This document shows, piece after piece, positions 40,215 through 46,526 of a stretch of DNA of 64,000 nucleotides. The notes beneath the pieces were generated by a model. It had not been told where the DNA came from. It did not search any database and saw only the letters and a list, made by a program, of their open reading frames with translations. Numbering within the stretch: position 1 is the first letter of the stretch; every line of letters begins with the position of its first letter. The stretch spans positions 1 to 64,000 of the forward strand of contig BAYV01000004.1 of assembly GCA_000710935.1 (NCBI GenBank), given 5' to 3'. Source of the stretch: Iodidimonas nitroreducens. Lineage in GTDB: Bacteria > Pseudomonadota > Alphaproteobacteria > Sphingomonadales > Rhodothalassiaceae. A program made the position numbers and the translations under genes.

Positions 40215-41633
40215 ATGGCCTCTCAGCATAAAACATCAGCCGTGCCCACAGCACCAAGCCCCGAACAGCGCGCGCAGCAGCGCCAGATTCTGCGTGAGGG
40301 GGATCGGCGGCATCATATTCACCCCTTTACCGATCATCAGGCGCTGGCCCAATCGGGGGCGTTCATCGCCGAACGGGCATCAGGCTCCACCCTTTATGGT
40401 GAAGGGGATCTGGCACTTCTGGATGCAATGGCGGGTTTGGCCTGCGTAAATGTGGGCTATGGCCGCCCGGAACTGGCACAAGCAGCCAGCGCGGCGATGC
40501 GCGATCTGGCCTATTATCACAGCTTTCAGGCGGTCACCAATCCCCATGCCGCGGCCTTGTCGGCACGGATCGCCGAACTGGCGCCGGGATCGCTCAATCG
40601 GGTGTTTTTTGCCAATTCCGGTTCGGAAGCCAATGAAACCATCCTGAAATGTGTGCGCGCCTATTGGCGGCTTAAAGGCGCACCAGAGCGTCAGCATATC
40701 ATCGCCCGGGATTACGCCTATCATGGCTCCACCATGCTCACCACCAGCCTGAATGGCCTGCCGGTGATGCATCAGGCTTTCGGCCTGCCCATGCCCGGCA
40801 TCAGCCATATCGAAGCCCCTTATTGGTATCGTTTGGGGGGTGATCTTGATCCTGAAGCCTATGGCCGCAAAGCCGCCGCCGCTTTGAAGGCTAAAATCAT
40901 GGAATTGGGGCGCGATCAGGTTGCCGCCTTCATTGCCGAGCCTATACAGGTGACATCGGGCGTGATCATGCCGCCATCGAGCTATTGGCCGGAGATTTCC
41001 GCCATCTGCAAGGAAGAAGGCATTTTGCTGATCGCCGATGAGGTGGTGACCGGATTTGGCCGCACCGGCCATTGGTTTGCCCAAAATCATTATGGCTTTG
41101 AAGCCGATTTCATGACTCTGGCAAAGGGCCTGACTTCGGGCTATATGCCTCTGGCGGCGGCGGTGGTCGCAGATCCTATTGCCGATCTGGTGCTGGATCA
41201 GGGCGGCGCCTTTCAGCATGGGTTCACCACATCGGGCCATCCCGTGGCCTGTGCGGTGGCCCATGAAAATCTGGTGATCATCGAACGCGAACATCTGGTG
41301 GAAAAAGCCGGTCAATCCGGGGCCATTCTGCACCGGGCTTTGGCATCCATCATTGGCGATCATCCTTTGGTGGGTGAAATCAGGGGCATCGGCCTTTTGG
41401 CCGGGATCGAACTGGTGCGCGATCGTCAAAGCCGCAGCGCCTATCCTTTGGAGATGGGATTATGCAGCCATATCGCCAATGCCGTGCTGATGAAGGGGGT
41501 GATCATTCGCCCCACGGGCAATTCTTTGGTGATCTGCCCGCCCTTCATCATTACCGAGGCGGAAATCGACCGGATCGTTTCGGCCCTGGCGCAGGGGCTG
41601 GATGAGGTTTATGCACAAATCCAAAAAGGATGA
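40215..41633 (+). CDS. Class III PLP aminotransferase (omega-aminotransferase type)
   Basis: 472 residues. Transfers an amino group from an amine or omega-amino acid to pyruvate or another oxo-acid. The cofactor lysine is Lys304 (TLAKGLTSGYMPL), Asp275 (LLIADEVVTGFGRTG) contacts the PLP ring nitrogen, and FFANSGSEANETILK near 131-145 binds the phosphate. The overall pattern, including HPFTDHQ at the N terminus, resembles putrescine/beta-alanine:pyruvate aminotransferases. The next methyltransferase starts inside its 3' end (23-bp overlap), so it heads a three-gene coupled operon. Substrate unknown. Confidence 0.93.
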   Translation: MASQHKTSAVPTAPSPEQRAQQRQILREGDRRHHIHPFTDHQALAQSGAFIAERASGSTLYGEGDLALLDAMAGLACVNVGYGRPELAQAASAAMRDLAYYHSFQAVTNPHAAALSARIAELAPGSLNRVFFANSGSEANETILKCVRAYWRLKGAPERQHIIARDYAYHGSTMLTTSLNGLPVMHQAFGLPMPGISHIEAPYWYRLGGDLDPEAYGRKAAAALKAKIMELGRDQVAAFIAEPIQVTSGVIMPPSSYWPEISAICKEEGILLIADEVVTGFGRTGHWFAQNHYGFEADFMTLAKGLTSGYMPLAAAVVADPIADLVLDQGGAFQHGFTTSGHPVACAVAHENLVIIEREHLVEKAGQSGAILHRALASIIGDHPLVGEIRGIGLLAGIELVRDRQSRSAYPLEMGLCSHIANAVLMKGVIIRPTGNSLVICPPFIITEAEIDRIVSALAQGLDEVYAQIQKG

Positions 41634-42321
41634 GGCGATAGCCTGCCCGCTTTGCGGTATGGCCGGGGCGATGCCCTTCATCGAGATCGAGGGCCAAGCC
41701 TATCATGCCTGCGAGCAGTGCGAGATCCGGTTTTTACATCCGCGCCATCATTTGCCGCCCATGGCCGAAAAAGCCCATTATGATCAGCATGAAAATGACG
41801 TGGATGATCCCGGCTATCGCCGCTTTTTAGCCCGGCTTCTCGATCCCTTGCTGGCTTATCTGGATCAAAACCCCGCTGGCCAAAGTTTAGCTGAGAGGCC
41901 CCTTCAGGCCCTTGATTTTGGCTGCGGCCCCGGTCCGGCTTTGGCGATGATGATCAAGGAAGCAGGCCATCATTGCGCCCTTTATGATCCTTTTTTCCAT
42001 CCCGATCAGGCGGCCATCGATCCGGGGGAAAAGGCGGGGGCTTATGATATCATCTGCTGCACCGAAGTGGCCGAGCATCTTTATCGCCCGGCTCAGGTGT
42101 TCGATCAGCTTGTGAAGCTGTTGGCACCTCAGGGGGTTTTGGCGATCATGACCTGTTTTCAAACCGATGATGCCCGCTTTGCCCAATGGCATTATCGCCG
42201 CGATCCAACCCATGTGATTTTCTATCGCCTGCGCAGTTTTCACGTTCTGGCCGATCGCTTTGGGCTATGCTGCCACAGCCCGGCGAAGGATGTGGTTTTT
42301 CTCAAAAAGGCAGGGCAATGA
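41611..42321 (+). CDS. Zinc-ribbon class I methyltransferase
   Basis: 236 residues from ATG 41611, preceded by GATGAGG and overlapping the aminotransferase end by 23 bp. An N-terminal zinc ribbon (CPLC and CEQC at about 14-17 and 34-37) is followed by a class I SAM domain with motif I ALDFGCGPGPA near 100. The post-motif block is DIICCTEVAEHLYRP, then LAPQGVLAIMTCF. The Zn-ribbon/Methyltransf_23 arrangement often acts on sugars, quinones or nucleic acids; the substrate cannot be told. It is coupled to the next gene by an ATGA overlap. Confidence 0.85.
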   Translation: MHKSKKDEAIACPLCGMAGAMPFIEIEGQAYHACEQCEIRFLHPRHHLPPMAEKAHYDQHENDVDDPGYRRFLARLLDPLLAYLDQNPAGQSLAERPLQALDFGCGPGPALAMMIKEAGHHCALYDPFFHPDQAAIDPGEKAGAYDIICCTEVAEHLYRPAQVFDQLVKLLAPQGVLAIMTCFQTDDARFAQWHYRRDPTHVIFYRLRSFHVLADRFGLCCHSPAKDVVFLKKAGQ

Positions 42322-42935
42322 GCACGGAGCTGCATCTGGCCCGCCTTGATCAGCTGGTGGCGGACATTTTGGCCTTGGGCGCGCGGTCGGTGCTGGATAT
42401 GGGCTGCGGCGATGGGGTTTTGATCCTTGAATTGCTGAAATATCCGGTGATTGAAAAGCTCGCCGGGATGGATGTGGGGGAAGAGGCGATCCGCCGCCTG
42501 CGCCAGACGCTGTCCGCCCTGCCGCAAAAAGATCGTGATCGCGTCACCCTTGCCAAAGGATCGATGCTGGATGCCGATCAGCGCTGGCAGGGATTTGATC
42601 TGGCGGTGATGCTGGAAACCATCGAGCATCTTGATCCCGCCGATCTTTCGCGCCTTGAGCGCCGATTATTTCATGATTTTGCCCCGCGCTGGATCATCAT
42701 CACCACCCCCAATAGCGAATTCAATGATTTGCTGGGGGTGCCGCCCCATCGTTTTCGCCATCCCGATCATCGCTTTGAGTGGGATCGTGCCCGCTTTGCC
42801 GCCTGGGCCCGTGGGGTGGCCAAACGCCATGGCTATGCTGTGGATTTAAAGCCATTGGGCGGGGCCCATCCGCTTTTGGGCGGGCCATCGCAAATGGCTT
42901 TATTTGCGCGGATCAGCCCTTTGGATCAAGAATAG
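42318..42935 (+). CDS. Stand-alone Hen1-like RNA 3'-terminal 2'-O-methyltransferase
   Basis: 205 residues from ATG 42318 (ATGA overlap with the preceding gene; an upstream in-frame extension to 42186 lies inside that gene). Class I SAM domain: motif I DMGCGDG (27-33). The Hen1 metal motif is ETIEH with Glu100, Glu103 and His104, then TTPNSEFNDLL near 129-139 and FRHPDHRFEWDRARFAAWA (146-164), where His151 (or His148) would be the fourth ligand. This combination is the Hen1 signature, which 2'-O-methylates RNA 3' ends. Bacterial Hen1 normally has an extra N-terminal domain and a Pnkp partner; neither is present. The substrate is therefore open. Confidence 0.72.
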   Translation: MSTELHLARLDQLVADILALGARSVLDMGCGDGVLILELLKYPVIEKLAGMDVGEEAIRRLRQTLSALPQKDRDRVTLAKGSMLDADQRWQGFDLAVMLETIEHLDPADLSRLERRLFHDFAPRWIIITTPNSEFNDLLGVPPHRFRHPDHRFEWDRARFAAWARGVAKRHGYAVDLKPLGGAHPLLGGPSQMALFARISPLDQE

Positions 42936-43917
42936 CCTCAGCCGTGCGCCTTAAAATCTGGCTGGCAGGCAGCGGCTGCCAATGCAGCAGGGCGCGGGCA
43001 AGGCTGCTATCATAGCGGCGGAAAAATCGCGCCGCCCGCACCCCTTCCACCGAAGCGGCGGGGGCTTTGCCGTTCAGTCGGCTGATGATGTTGCCCCCAT
43101 GGCCGGCCATCGCCGCCAGCCAATAGGGGATGGTTTTGCGGGGCATCGGGCGGTCGCTGATCTGCGCGAGATGATCAAGCATGGCCCCAAAGCCGATGGT
43201 CTCGCCCGCCAGCACAAAACGGCTGCCATCCGGGGCATTTTGGGCTGCGGCCAGATGCGCTTTTGCGGTTTGATCCACATCGATCAGATTGAGCCCCATC
43301 TCCAGATAAGCGGGGGGTGGATGGTGCAAAAACCCTTTGATCATATCGGTTGGTTCGGTTGCGAAATGATCGGGCGGCCCCATGGGCACCGTGGGATAAA
43401 GGATCAGGATGTCCAGCGATCCGCCCATGGCCCGGCGCAAGGCTTCATCGGCCAGCCATTTGGATCGGCTATAGGGGCCGGGCATGGATTCCAGCGGCGG
43501 TTTGGGATCATGTTCGCTGATCGGTTCGGGATTGGGATCGCGCCAATCGCGCAGGATCAGGGCGGTGGAGGTGGCAATCAGCCGCCGCACCCCAAGGGCC
43601 TTGGCCGCGGCAATCACCCGGGCCGTGCCCTGATGATTGATCTGCTCATAAAGCCCGGGATCAGCCGCCCAAAGCCGGGCATTGGCGGCCAGATGATAAA
43701 CCGTTTCGCAGCCCTTCATGGCGTTCATCAGGGCATCTTGATCAAGGATCGAACCGGGATGACCGATCACGCCTTTTGGCAAAAGATCGGGTGGCAAAAG
43801 ATCGGGGCGGGCAGCGGGATCAAGCACACGCACATCAGCCCCAAGTTGATGCACCTGCCGGGCAAGGCTGCTGCCGATAAAACCCGCGCCGCCGGTGATT
43901 AAAACAGGCCCATTCAT
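42913..43917 (-). CDS. NAD(P)-dependent epimerase/reductase (extended SDR)
   Basis: 334 residues. Extended short-chain dehydrogenase: Rossmann motif TGGAGFIG (8-15), HLAANARLW near 75-83, and the catalytic Tyr149/Lys153 pair (YSRSK) with Ser117 from TST. The sequence is closest in style to hopanoid-associated HpnA and dihydroflavonol-reductase-like members, which act on sugars or sterol-like alcohols. Its 3' end overlaps the 3' end of the Hen1-like gene by 23 bp (convergent). It is the last gene of a minus-strand trio and is coupled to the one before it by ATGA. Confidence 0.85.
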   Translation of the reverse strand: MNGPVLITGGAGFIGSSLARQVHQLGADVRVLDPAARPDLLPPDLLPKGVIGHPGSILDQDALMNAMKGCETVYHLAANARLWAADPGLYEQINHQGTARVIAAAKALGVRRLIATSTALILRDWRDPNPEPISEHDPKPPLESMPGPYSRSKWLADEALRRAMGGSLDILILYPTVPMGPPDHFATEPTDMIKGFLHHPPPAYLEMGLNLIDVDQTAKAHLAAAQNAPDGSRFVLAGETIGFGAMLDHLAQISDRPMPRKTIPYWLAAMAGHGGNIISRLNGKAPAASVEGVRAARFFRRYDSSLARALLHWQPLPASQILRRTAEAILDPKG

Positions 43918-45170
43918 GGCTTATCTCCTTGGCCCATCGTCGTTTTTTCCTTGGCGGAATGGAGCGTGCAGATGGCCAGTCCCTCGCCAAAGGCCGACCC
44001 CATGATCAGATGCGATCCGCTTTTCACAGCACTTGTGGCCCCGGGAAAAACCTTGCCATCGATCTTCAGCACTTTGCTGAGATGCACCCTGCCATCAGCC
44101 GTCAGTTCCAAGCGATAAATGATGCTGTCAGGCTGGCTGAAGGGGGCATTGAAGGCGCGAAAAAGGGCATAGGACAACAGATGATCAAGGGCGGCGATAT
44201 AAAAGGCCCCATCATCGCCACGGTTGATATTATCGGGGGCGGCAGCAAGCGCAATCAGCTTGGGCAGGCCAGCGAGAGCAGGGGCGGGAGCGAGAGCAGG
44301 GGCGGGAGCGGGATTTCGGACATCGCCCAGATCAAGGATGCGCAGGTTTTTGCCCCGGGTTTCCGCGATGATCAGATGGGGCCTGCCATCAAGATCGGCG
44401 ACGGCAAGGCCATTGGCGAAAGCAAGATCATCACGCAGTTTGGTGGCGCCTTGGGCATCGAGCAGGGCCACCGCACCATTGGCTCGGTTGAACATCTGAT
44501 CGGCCCAGCGCCCGCTTTTGCTGCAGCTTGCCAGATCATTGCTGATGAGCAGGCGATCCGGGGCCAAAGCCACAACCATATTGGGATGGCACAGCCCCGT
44601 GCCGATAAAGGATTGATGGGTGATATGAGTGATCAAGGTGCCGCTTTCATCAAGGCCCAAGGCGATGATCCGGGGCTGATCCGTGATCAGCCTGCCCCGG
44701 CTGTCATGATAAGGCGCGCGATCGATGCTGTATAAAATCCGCTTATGATCCGCATTCCCATTCCCATTCCTATCCCCATTCCCATCCCCATTTTGGCCGA
44801 TCCATAAATCCAGCCCATGGGGGCGCATGGCATCATGATCTGCGCGCGTCAGAGATGTCACCGTCAGGCTTTCGCCGCCCTTTTCAAGATCATCAAGCGC
44901 CAAAGCCAGCAGGCCGCCGGGATAAAGGGATGGCGCGGGCGTTTCATCAAGGGCGATGCGGCGGTTATAGGCGGCCAGATAAAGCATGCCGCGCTGATGA
45001 TCAACGGCCATATCTTCCACGCCGACAACAAGGCGCCCATCTTCATCATGAAGGGCGAGCGAACGGCAATGGCTTGCACCATAAGGCAAGAGCGGCGCAT
45101 CAGGCTGATCGCATGCGGCAAGGACAAGGGAGAGCATCACAGTCAAAGCCCTATGCCGGCCCCGCATCAA
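43914..45170 (-). CDS. Paraoxonase/arylesterase-like lipoprotein
   Basis: 418 residues. Lipobox LVLAAC with Cys20 anchors it to a membrane. The rest is a six-bladed beta propeller in the SMP-30/PON style: VEDMAVDHQRGMLYLA near 50-65, MRPHGLDLWIG, LLISNDLASC, FANGLAVADLDG and APDNINRGDDGAFYIA. These supply the Asn/Asp/Glu calcium positions of paraoxonases, which hydrolyse lactones and esters. Two in-frame low-complexity inserts are present: a Gly/Asn stretch near residues 124-140 and a Pro/Ala stretch near 288-303. It overlaps the sulfotransferase upstream and the epimerase downstream. Confidence 0.7.
   Translation of the reverse strand: MMRGRHRALTVMLSLVLAACDQPDAPLLPYGASHCRSLALHDEDGRLVVGVEDMAVDHQRGMLYLAAYNRRIALDETPAPSLYPGGLLALALDDLEKGGESLTVTSLTRADHDAMRPHGLDLWIGQNGDGNGDRNGNGNADHKRILYSIDRAPYHDSRGRLITDQPRIIALGLDESGTLITHITHQSFIGTGLCHPNMVVALAPDRLLISNDLASCSKSGRWADQMFNRANGAVALLDAQGATKLRDDLAFANGLAVADLDGRPHLIIAETRGKNLRILDLGDVRNPAPAPALAPAPALAGLPKLIALAAAPDNINRGDDGAFYIAALDHLLSYALFRAFNAPFSQPDSIIYRLELTADGRVHLSKVLKIDGKVFPGATSAVKSGSHLIMGSAFGEGLAICTLHSAKEKTTMGQGDKP
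44271..44306. repeat. 18-bp tandem repeat inside the paraoxonase-like gene
   Basis: AGCGAGAGCAGGGGCGGG is repeated exactly twice and then partly a third time. On the coding strand it encodes Pro-Ala-Pro-Ala-Leu-Ala units. The 18-bp period keeps the frame. Confidence 0.85.
44753..44796. repeat. 6-bp tandem repeat inside the paraoxonase-like gene
   Basis: About seven copies of an ATTCCC/ATCCCC-type hexamer. On the coding strand it encodes alternating Gly and Asn/Asp. The period keeps the frame, so copy-number changes alter only a loop length. Confidence 0.75.
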
Positions 45171-46270
45171 AGCGCATCCTCATAACCCCAATGGCGGATA
45201 TGGTCGCCCCAGCGATCCATCAGTTTCTGGCGCAGATCAGGCGGGGCGGTGAAGCTGTTTTTCTGATAATCGGCAACCGAGCCAAGATAGCGTTCAAACA
45301 CCGGGCGGGCGGCAGCAAAACCATCCATGTCGAGGCGATCATAAATATGGCCGATTTCAGCCATGGGATCGGCCTGGAAAGCATCAAAGCTTAATTCATG
45401 AAATTGATGGGCGGGCAGATCGGCGGTTTCCCGGCGCAGATTGTGCATCATCCGATCATAGGTCGCCAAAATGATCTCATCGATATCCAGATGCCCGTAA
45501 TCCTGCAGGGCAAATTGCGCAAACAGGGCTTGATAGAAATTGCGCATGGATAAAAACACCTTCGCCGGATTGCGATGGATGTGGATGAATTTGGCATCCG
45601 GCCACAGGGCGCGCAATTGGGCCGGGCGCGCAGTATAAACCGGATTTTTGATCAAAAGCTGGCGGCCCGGTTGGGCGATGGAGAGCTTTTTATAAAACAG
45701 ACGCAAAATGCCTTCCCATTGGGTGCGTTCCTTAGCGCTTACACCATCAAGAAACACCCCCGATTGGAAATAGTCGTCAAATTTTTGGGGATAATAAAGC
45801 CCGTGATAAAAAGACAGCGCCGACATATTGGCGAGGGCGATTTCATCTTCCTGCGGAGAATCCGCATCCACCCGCACCCGATCAATATAGCGATGTTCTG
45901 GCAGCTTTTTCACGAGCAATGGTTCGAGCGCCCGGCCCAAAAGCAGAAAATCCCATGGCAAAGCAGTGGCAAAGGGGGAAACATAGCCAAAGCGATCAGA
46001 TTTCGAGAGCACATTATAAAGATGGGTCGTGCCTGATCGCCAATGCCCCAAAATAAAAATCGGTGCCTGATGATCTCCAGCTTTGGGGCGCAGGGCCAAG
46101 GTGCCGCGCTCGATCAGGGAAAAAGGCAGCCGCCCCAGTGCTGCCCCGAATGCGGCCAGCATTTTCATCCGGGCATGGGGGGCAAGCCCGCCCGAACGTC
46201 GCCACACGGTCCACAGCGTTGCAAGATTGGCACCATAAAGCGGATGGGATGGATCAGCCTTTTTCGACAT
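45167..46270 (-). CDS. Sulfotransferase family protein
   Basis: 367 residues from the ATG at 46270; an in-frame extension to 46339 is not family-like. PAPS-dependent transfer of sulfate to a hydroxyl or amine. The 5'-phosphosulfate loop is GHWRSGTTHL (75-84) and the 3'-phosphate segment is FIHIHRNPAKVFLSMRNFY; IKNPVYTARPAQLRALWPDAK precedes it. This is the bacterial Sulfotransfer_3 type. First gene of the sulfotransferase / paraoxonase-like / epimerase operon, with the next gene overlapping by 4 bp. Acceptor unknown. Confidence 0.88.
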   Translation of the reverse strand: MSKKADPSHPLYGANLATLWTVWRRSGGLAPHARMKMLAAFGAALGRLPFSLIERGTLALRPKAGDHQAPIFILGHWRSGTTHLYNVLSKSDRFGYVSPFATALPWDFLLLGRALEPLLVKKLPEHRYIDRVRVDADSPQEDEIALANMSALSFYHGLYYPQKFDDYFQSGVFLDGVSAKERTQWEGILRLFYKKLSIAQPGRQLLIKNPVYTARPAQLRALWPDAKFIHIHRNPAKVFLSMRNFYQALFAQFALQDYGHLDIDEIILATYDRMMHNLRRETADLPAHQFHELSFDAFQADPMAEIGHIYDRLDMDGFAAARPVFERYLGSVADYQKNSFTAPPDLRQKLMDRWGDHIRHWGYEDAL

Positions 46271-46526
46271 AAAAGCAGGGCCTTTTCGGGGCAGGGGATG
46301 CGATAGACCTGTGATCGCCCCGGTGGGGCCGCTTGTCAAGCCAAGGCCATATCACAGCCCGGCGATATTTGGAAAAAAAGCCAAAGAAAAAGACCGGGGA
46401 AAAAGGCTGGGGAAAAACAGCTTTGTGCACCATTTATCCTTTGCGCGGATCATGAAGCACGATAAGAAACATTTGATAGGCAGAGCCTTGTGGAAATACA
46501 ACCCTTGGAAGATGAGGAGACGGCCC
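46271..46526. other. Non-coding divergent interval
   Basis: 256 bases between the sulfotransferase and the oxygenase, holding their divergent promoters. Purine-rich A/G runs occur at 46373-46430. No gene, clear hairpin or operator was recognised. Confidence 0.5.

Follow-up and report, generated by a model that had tools for sequence, protein, structure and literature searches.

The window analyzed here, a stretch of 64,000 nucleotides from Iodidimonas nitroreducens (contig BAYV01000004.1), carries at positions 42318–42935 of the plus strand a gene (P0001, 205 amino acids) that encodes the methyltransferase domain of Hen1 and nothing else. The role known for bacterial Hen1 is in RNA repair. 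The protein in the window is not a one-off but one of a group of stand-alone Hen1 proteins; none of the hosts searched has a recognizable Pnkp, and many of the genes adjoin that of a second methyltransferase bearing a zinc ribbon. With a probability of about 0.55, we propose that the window gene specifies a stand-alone, Pnkp-independent, metal-dependent Hen1 that 2′-O-methylates the terminal ribose of RNA 3′ ends.

Family identity and predicted active site

A preliminary description of the sequence had recognized Hen1 from two motifs, ETIEH (residues 100–104 of the translation) and FRHPDHRFEW (residues 146–155), and this assignment is borne out by profile searches. The top NCBIfam match, and the only strong one, is TIGR04074 (bacter_Hen1; expectation value (E) 7.7e-61), aligned over profile positions 264–461 of 462, that is, over the methyltransferase half only. 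The best sequence matches in the PDB are bacterial Hen1 proteins (3jwj/3jwh, 6e-43), followed by human HENMT1 and plant HEN1, and Pfam recognizes generic methyltransferase domains. The same description had noted that only the methyltransferase domain is present, and indeed the N-terminal ligase-activating domain is absent from the open reading frame as well as from the surrounding locus. No family of non-RNA methyltransferases matches better. UbiG-type O-methyltransferases are the nearest non-Hen1 family by sequence, and an ExxEH-like motif is seen in one aligned UbiG chain, but they match only at E 9.5e-7 and, to our knowledge, have no RHPDHRFEW block. A defence-system gene was also considered and rejected: the PADLOC matches of the window Hen1 (mad2, 1.3e-10; MTase_II, 5.9e-4) are confined to the methyltransferase core, and the zinc-ribbon protein has none.

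An AlphaFold2 model built from 58 aligned rows (mean predicted local distance difference test (pLDDT) 96.0, predicted template modeling score 0.92) has the Hen1 fold. The first 11 PDB matches returned by Foldseek are all Hen1 or HENMT1, and VIA-align superposes the predicted fold on AvHen1 (3jwh) with a Z score of 28.2 and a root-mean-square deviation of 1.5 Å over 189 residues, on plant HEN1 with Z 25.8, on human HENMT1 with Z 24.9 and on the Hen1 of the Pnkp1-Rnl complex with Z 19.6, the first non-Hen1 structure following at Z 19.0. Four residues that had been expected to form a Glu-Glu-His-His metal cluster, E100, E103, H104 and H151, align with the metal ligands named in a passage of PMC10781085 for plant HEN1 (E796, E799, H800, H860) and HENMT1 (E132, E135, H136, H181); the comparison extended to superposition and residue correspondence. 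Calculations on plant HEN1, reported in the same source, describe the methyltransferase domain alone as decisive for activity.

Conservation was assessed by aligning 65 stand-alone with 28 full-length Hen1 rows, after removal of two duplicates (L010, L121) and one sequence cut at a contig end (L093). All four putative ligands are invariant in both sets (65/65 and 28/28), as are T130, P131, N132, N136, R147, F153, E154, W155, R157 and W163; these ten further residues, identical in the aligned stretch of human HENMT1, presumably line the pocket for the ribose end. Stand-alone rows nevertheless differ from full-length ones at several positions. H6 is present in 65/65 versus 12/28 rows, and T101 in 58/65 stand-alone rows, where 27 of the 28 full-length rows have V. 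The loop before RHPDH (positions 139–145) has a signature of its own in the stand-alone set: L139 is found in 59/65 rows, with L not among the commonest residues there in full-length Hen1, and G140 (63/65 versus 7/28), P142 (60/65 versus 12/28) and R145 (60/65 versus 7/28) are similarly enriched.

Distribution of stand-alone Hen1 and RNA-repair partners

A genome scan with the window Hen1 yielded 567 relatives, and the best 80, those nearest the window protein, were taken further; since these rows were chosen by nearness, their proportions do not represent the family at large. When six N-terminal domains of full-length Hen1 were compared by tblastn with the fetched locus DNA, 59 of the 80 loci lacked the domain and 21 had it, the class of a few loci whose contig begins close upstream (L056, L086) being set by an upstream partner or a close relative. 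In a maximum-likelihood tree of 96 rows, the 28 full-length rows, two bacterial PDB rows and one short protein form a single clade (support 100/99), and the remaining 64 stand-alone rows branch elsewhere, some nearer to this clade than others, with human HENMT1 on a long branch. Depending on where the root lies, the stand-alone sequences may be one lineage or a grade from which full-length Hen1 arose. The short protein inside the full-length clade (L098:6243-6854) may have lost its N-terminal domain independently and recently.

Of 385 evenly sampled alphaproteobacterial genomes, six have full-length and six have stand-alone Hen1, the window's own included, and below these twelve the matches show a gap from E 2.9e-59 to 5.9e-11. 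The nearest relative of the window protein is that of the sister species Iodidimonas muriae (L034, 56% identity). One genome of the window's genus encodes an identical protein (L010), and another (G001) has no such match (best E 3e-4). Identity as a phage gene was rejected, no match at E 1e-10 being found in 50,697 phage records. Among 72,556 plasmid records, 18 match at E 1e-20; two were looked at, one of them without annotation.

The preliminary description had found no Pnkp in the window, which is correct and can be extended to the whole genome (98.7% complete), where TIGR04075 has no match at E 0.001. Fifty-three genomes were surveyed in the same way, namely 17 full-length rows and 36 stand-alone genomes (the six of the 385-genome sample plus 30 of the 59 loci, L076 not included). 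Pnkp was found in 17/17 full-length rows, which represent 16 distinct genomes because G435 and G525, with identical coordinates, are probably one, versus 0/36 stand-alone genomes. RtcB shows nearly the same split (15/17 versus 2/36) and was not found in the window's genome. Repair with Pnkp or RtcB was accordingly rejected for the window's genome and for most of its relatives. Given that the searched hosts have no Pnkp and mostly no RtcB, and that the ligase-activating domain is missing, stand-alone Hen1 does not appear to serve ligation by those enzymes. According to passages of PMC4411300, pnkp and hen1 always lie in one operon, and in a second bacterial system, Pnkp1-Rnl-Hen1, hen1 lies far from the ligase operon and its product keeps the ligase-activating domain. 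The latter system (4xrp/4xru) resembles the window in that Hen1 is encoded away from ligase genes and differs from it in that domain; the window protein fits neither arrangement.

With Pnkp-associated bacterial Hen1 (3jwg/3jwh/3jwi/3jwj) the window protein shares the methyltransferase domain, its fold and metal ligands, the RHxDHRFEW block and 35–37% sequence identity. It differs in lacking the ligase-activating N-terminal domain and a Pnkp in its genome, in its place outside the full-length clade, in its operon partner and in its loop signature. Eukaryotic HEN1/HENMT1 (3htx, 5wy0, 4xcx) offers a parallel, that of a methyltransferase working without a ligase, with the same four metal ligands and Z scores of about 25, although sequence identity is 33–38% and the eukaryotic enzymes carry other accessory parts and have small-RNA partners. 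We know of no such small-RNA pathway in these bacteria.

The zinc-ribbon partner, a third gene and the wider locus

Upstream of the window Hen1, on the same strand, lies a gene for a class I methyltransferase of 239 amino acids with a CxxC...CxxC zinc ribbon (41602–42321), whose stop codon overlaps the Hen1 start codon in the four bases ATGA (42318–42321). Of the coupling of Hen1 to two neighbours, as described initially, the overlap with this gene is borne out and suggests that the coupling is translational. In adjacency counts made by tblastn, a zinc-ribbon methyltransferase gene immediately precedes Hen1, in the same orientation, at 26/59 stand-alone versus 0/21 full-length loci; at one further locus (L040) a copy is found on the opposite strand at a distance of about 5 kb. 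Among 28 adjacent pairs (the 26 loci, the window and L122 of G332), with start codons assigned by the analysis script, 24 show an exact four-base overlap (ATGA, GTGA or TTGA). The hosts of the pair include Paracoccaceae, Roseobacteraceae, Phyllobacteriaceae, Rhizobiaceae, Kaistiaceae and one Acidobacteriota assembly. ExxEH (E155, E158, H159) and H204 of the partner are invariant in 26 aligned rows. ExxEH and WxYxxxx(T/S)H are kept in all 21 copies checked, among them the window copy and a few from the earlier alignment, and the four-cysteine pattern, from which the partner would be expected to bind zinc, in 20 of these, the aligned part of the last one starting after the first cysteines.

The association is also seen in samples drawn by genome. 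Thirteen of the 385 genomes contain the zinc-ribbon family, among them 6/6 with stand-alone and 0/6 with full-length Hen1 (Fisher p 3.9e-10, or 3.7e-7 when one genus, which supplies three of the six, is counted once as the sole correction for kinship), although the two genes are adjacent in only two of the six. A second sample comprised 248 genomes from the family to which G532 belongs, this centre having been chosen for carrying the pair. It contains ten stand-alone and five full-length Hen1 genomes and seven with the zinc-ribbon gene, distributed as 6/10 stand-alone (all six adjacent by coordinates), 0/5 full-length and 1/233 others; without the centre p is 1e-7, and the sample overlaps the best-80 loci, which already comprised no fewer than three of the ten (G532, G500, G540). 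Of the 17 full-length rows searched (out of 21 loci), one has a zinc-ribbon match.

A third gene, spermidine-synthase-like, lies within 5 kb of Hen1 at 18/59 stand-alone versus 0/21 full-length loci. In nine cases it lies upstream of the zinc-ribbon gene, in seven it immediately precedes Hen1, and in the other two it is simply nearby. In the window's genome it is found on another contig (G000:C1:45905-46615, equivalent to L192:6906-7616, minus strand; 64% identity to the query). The family, of about 238 amino acids, has a mean column identity of 69% over 17 rows. For two members scanned, no NCBIfam match was found at 0.01, and Pfam gave only DUF4159 for one of them, at 0.007 and under its cut-off; PADLOC matched mad2 at 5.9e-6. 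Sixteen of the 385 genomes have this gene, including 5/13 zinc-ribbon genomes (p 6.7e-5) and 1/6 stand-alone-Hen1 genomes (p 0.23). Its link to Hen1 thus shows at loci near the window's sequence (18 of the 59) but does not show in the even sample. At L157 (G190) and L156 (G278), in genomes that lack a Hen1-level match, it immediately precedes the zinc-ribbon gene.

A class III aminotransferase gene of the PRK07480 type (40215–41633, plus strand) overlaps the zinc-ribbon gene, which starts at 41602 or at a later in-frame ATG. The preliminary description had placed Hen1 in a metabolic operon with this aminotransferase, a part of its claim that does not hold as a general feature: among the loci compared, the aminotransferase is close to Hen1 only in Iodidimonas, and in I. 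muriae some 1 kb separates it from Hen1, which lies downstream of it beyond a gene on the opposite strand. The sole other match (L058) is 6 kb from Hen1 on the far side, and the aminotransferase is probably outside the Hen1/zinc-ribbon module. A downstream epimerase gene was likewise rejected as part of the module, as it lies on the opposite strand and clusters only with its I. muriae counterpart. Nearby also lie genes for a 417-residue protein that matches nothing in Pfam or NCBIfam up to E 0.1 (43914–45170, minus strand), whose counterpart adjoins the epimerase in I. muriae, a sulfotransferase (Sulfotransfer_3; 45167–46339, minus strand) and a 2OG-Fe(II) oxygenase family protein (TIGR02466; 46311–47150, plus strand). 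Scans of the window with Rfam (gathering threshold) and ARAGORN gave no match.

At ten loci (L041, L048, L049, L058, L067, L069, L071, L073, L075, L237), in Alphaproteobacteria and Thiobacillus/Hydrogenophilales, genes for a SulP anion transporter and a universal stress protein lie within 8 kb of stand-alone Hen1; separately counted, the stress protein occurs at 12/59 and SulP at 11/59 stand-alone loci, and both at 0/21 full-length loci. On a Comamonas plasmid, SulP, the universal stress protein, a hypothetical protein, a TraR/DksA-type protein, the Hen1-like gene, cfa and release factor 3 are encoded on one strand. The names of many hosts of stand-alone Hen1, e.g., Halochromatium, Salinihabitans, Alkalilacustris and Iodidimonas, suggest to us saline or alkaline habitats.

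RNA 3′ ends or a ribose-bearing small molecule

In the proposed reaction, Hen1 would transfer a methyl group from S-adenosylmethionine (SAM), in a Mg/Mn-dependent manner, onto the 2′-hydroxyl of a terminal ribose with free 2′- and 3′-hydroxyls at an RNA 3′ end. Since no ligase partner would follow, the methylated product would stay as a 3′ end, and stand-alone Hen1 would probably mark or protect RNA 3′ ends directly, as eukaryotic Hen1 does. The zinc-ribbon methyltransferase, often apparently co-transcribed, may modify the same or a related substrate. A passage of PMC8220740 states that Hen1 methylation protects RNA from degradation.

Several observations weigh against this reading. The window Hen1 scores 206 bits, below the curated TIGR04074 cut-off of 340 bits, which is not reached because the N-terminal half of the model is absent from the protein. 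This matters for annotation too, and the one annotated stand-alone relative examined, on the Comamonas plasmid, bears only the label ‘methyltransferase domain-containing protein’. No RNA-processing gene was recognized adjoining Hen1, by profile in the window and by eye at the other loci. Neither Hen1 nor the zinc-ribbon gene always comes with the other: among the 33 stand-alone genomes that have no adjacent copy, 27, I. muriae included, lack a match at E 1e-20 (the other six, L040's among them, have one elsewhere), and 7/13 zinc-ribbon genomes of the 385-genome sample have no Hen1-level match. The predicted structure of the partner (pLDDT 88) superposes best, along residues 11–239, on sugar methyltransferases, with Z 19.0 for MtmC, which we take to be a deoxysugar enzyme. 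TcaB9, at Z 17.5, bears a PDB title naming a C-3′-methyltransferase with a dTDP-sugar substrate. UbiG follows at Z 15.6, only from residue 53 on and without the zinc part. In the sugar C-3 methyltransferases TcaB9 and KijD1, and in MtmC, both the N-terminal part and the methyltransferase core superpose (Z 16–19), but sequence identity is 15–21% and these enzymes continue where the partner ends, the aligned range stopping near residue 267 of about 405. The model thus favours a sugar- or small-molecule-type enzyme, and mainly for this reason RNA is not taken as a settled substrate. For the third gene product, the best PDB profile match is a polyamine aminopropyltransferase (7xif, E 1.4e-7), so that both associated genes point to small-molecule chemistry. 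Hen1 itself, moreover, is described as closest to UbiG-type small-molecule enzymes in a passage of Tkaczuk et al. 2006 (PMC1397878).

In a rival reading, the substrate is a ribose-bearing small molecule, such as a nucleotide, nucleotide-sugar or nucleoside product, whose 2′-hydroxyl is methylated by Hen1 and which the zinc-ribbon and spermidine-synthase-like enzymes modify further. The sugar-methyltransferase likeness of the partner, the recurrence of the third gene at stand-alone loci only, its co-occurrence with the zinc-ribbon family (5/13 versus 16/385 overall) and the distinctive loop before RHPDH all speak for such a substrate. It nonetheless seems unlikely. The other Hen1 columns are unchanged, and at the loci inspected by eye no set of biosynthetic genes recurs alongside. 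The three genes are met singly and in every pairing, which is not the pattern of a fixed pathway, and in the 385 genomes Hen1 coincides with the third gene no more often than expected by chance. Continued service in RNA repair, with some ligase that is neither Pnkp nor RtcB, e.g., an Rnl/Pnkp1-type pair encoded elsewhere, has a precedent in the remote hen1 of the Pnkp1-Rnl-Hen1 system (PMC4411300) but is quite improbable given the missing ligase-activating domain and the near absence of Pnkp and RtcB, the two repair enzymes searched for, from stand-alone genomes. That the window gene is a shortened remnant of full-length Hen1 that has lost its function and is drifting, as may be the case for the short protein L098, is hardly credible: the other 64 stand-alone rows lie outside the full-length clade, the catalytic columns are invariant and the four-base overlap recurs across families. 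A degraded fragment was rejected for the window gene on its catalytic columns, its position in the tree and the N-terminal-domain test of the loci.

Methylation of RNA 3′ ends by a Pnkp-independent Hen1 thus remains the preferred reading. More tentatively, and with some doubt, stand-alone Hen1, the zinc-ribbon methyltransferase and the spermidine-synthase-like protein might constitute a Pnkp-independent module of three SAM-fold enzymes that adds 2′-O-methyl and other modifications to RNA 3′ ends or to a ribose-bearing molecule, patchily distributed in Alphaproteobacteria and found as outliers in Acidobacteriota, Thermodesulfobacteriota and other classes of proteobacteria. The Hen1 family is already known, and passages of Tkaczuk et al. 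2006 (PMC1397878) report it from few bacterial genera, the ‘short’ bacterial forms mentioned there being those without the long plant extension. The stand-alone arrangement was not found described, by title or abstract start, in open-licence literature and seems new, although a first report is not claimed. That a group of Hen1 proteins retains its catalytic residues in hosts without the repair partner implies either a bacterial form of RNA 3′-end protection, comparable to that of eukaryotic small RNAs, or a new substrate for the Hen1 fold.
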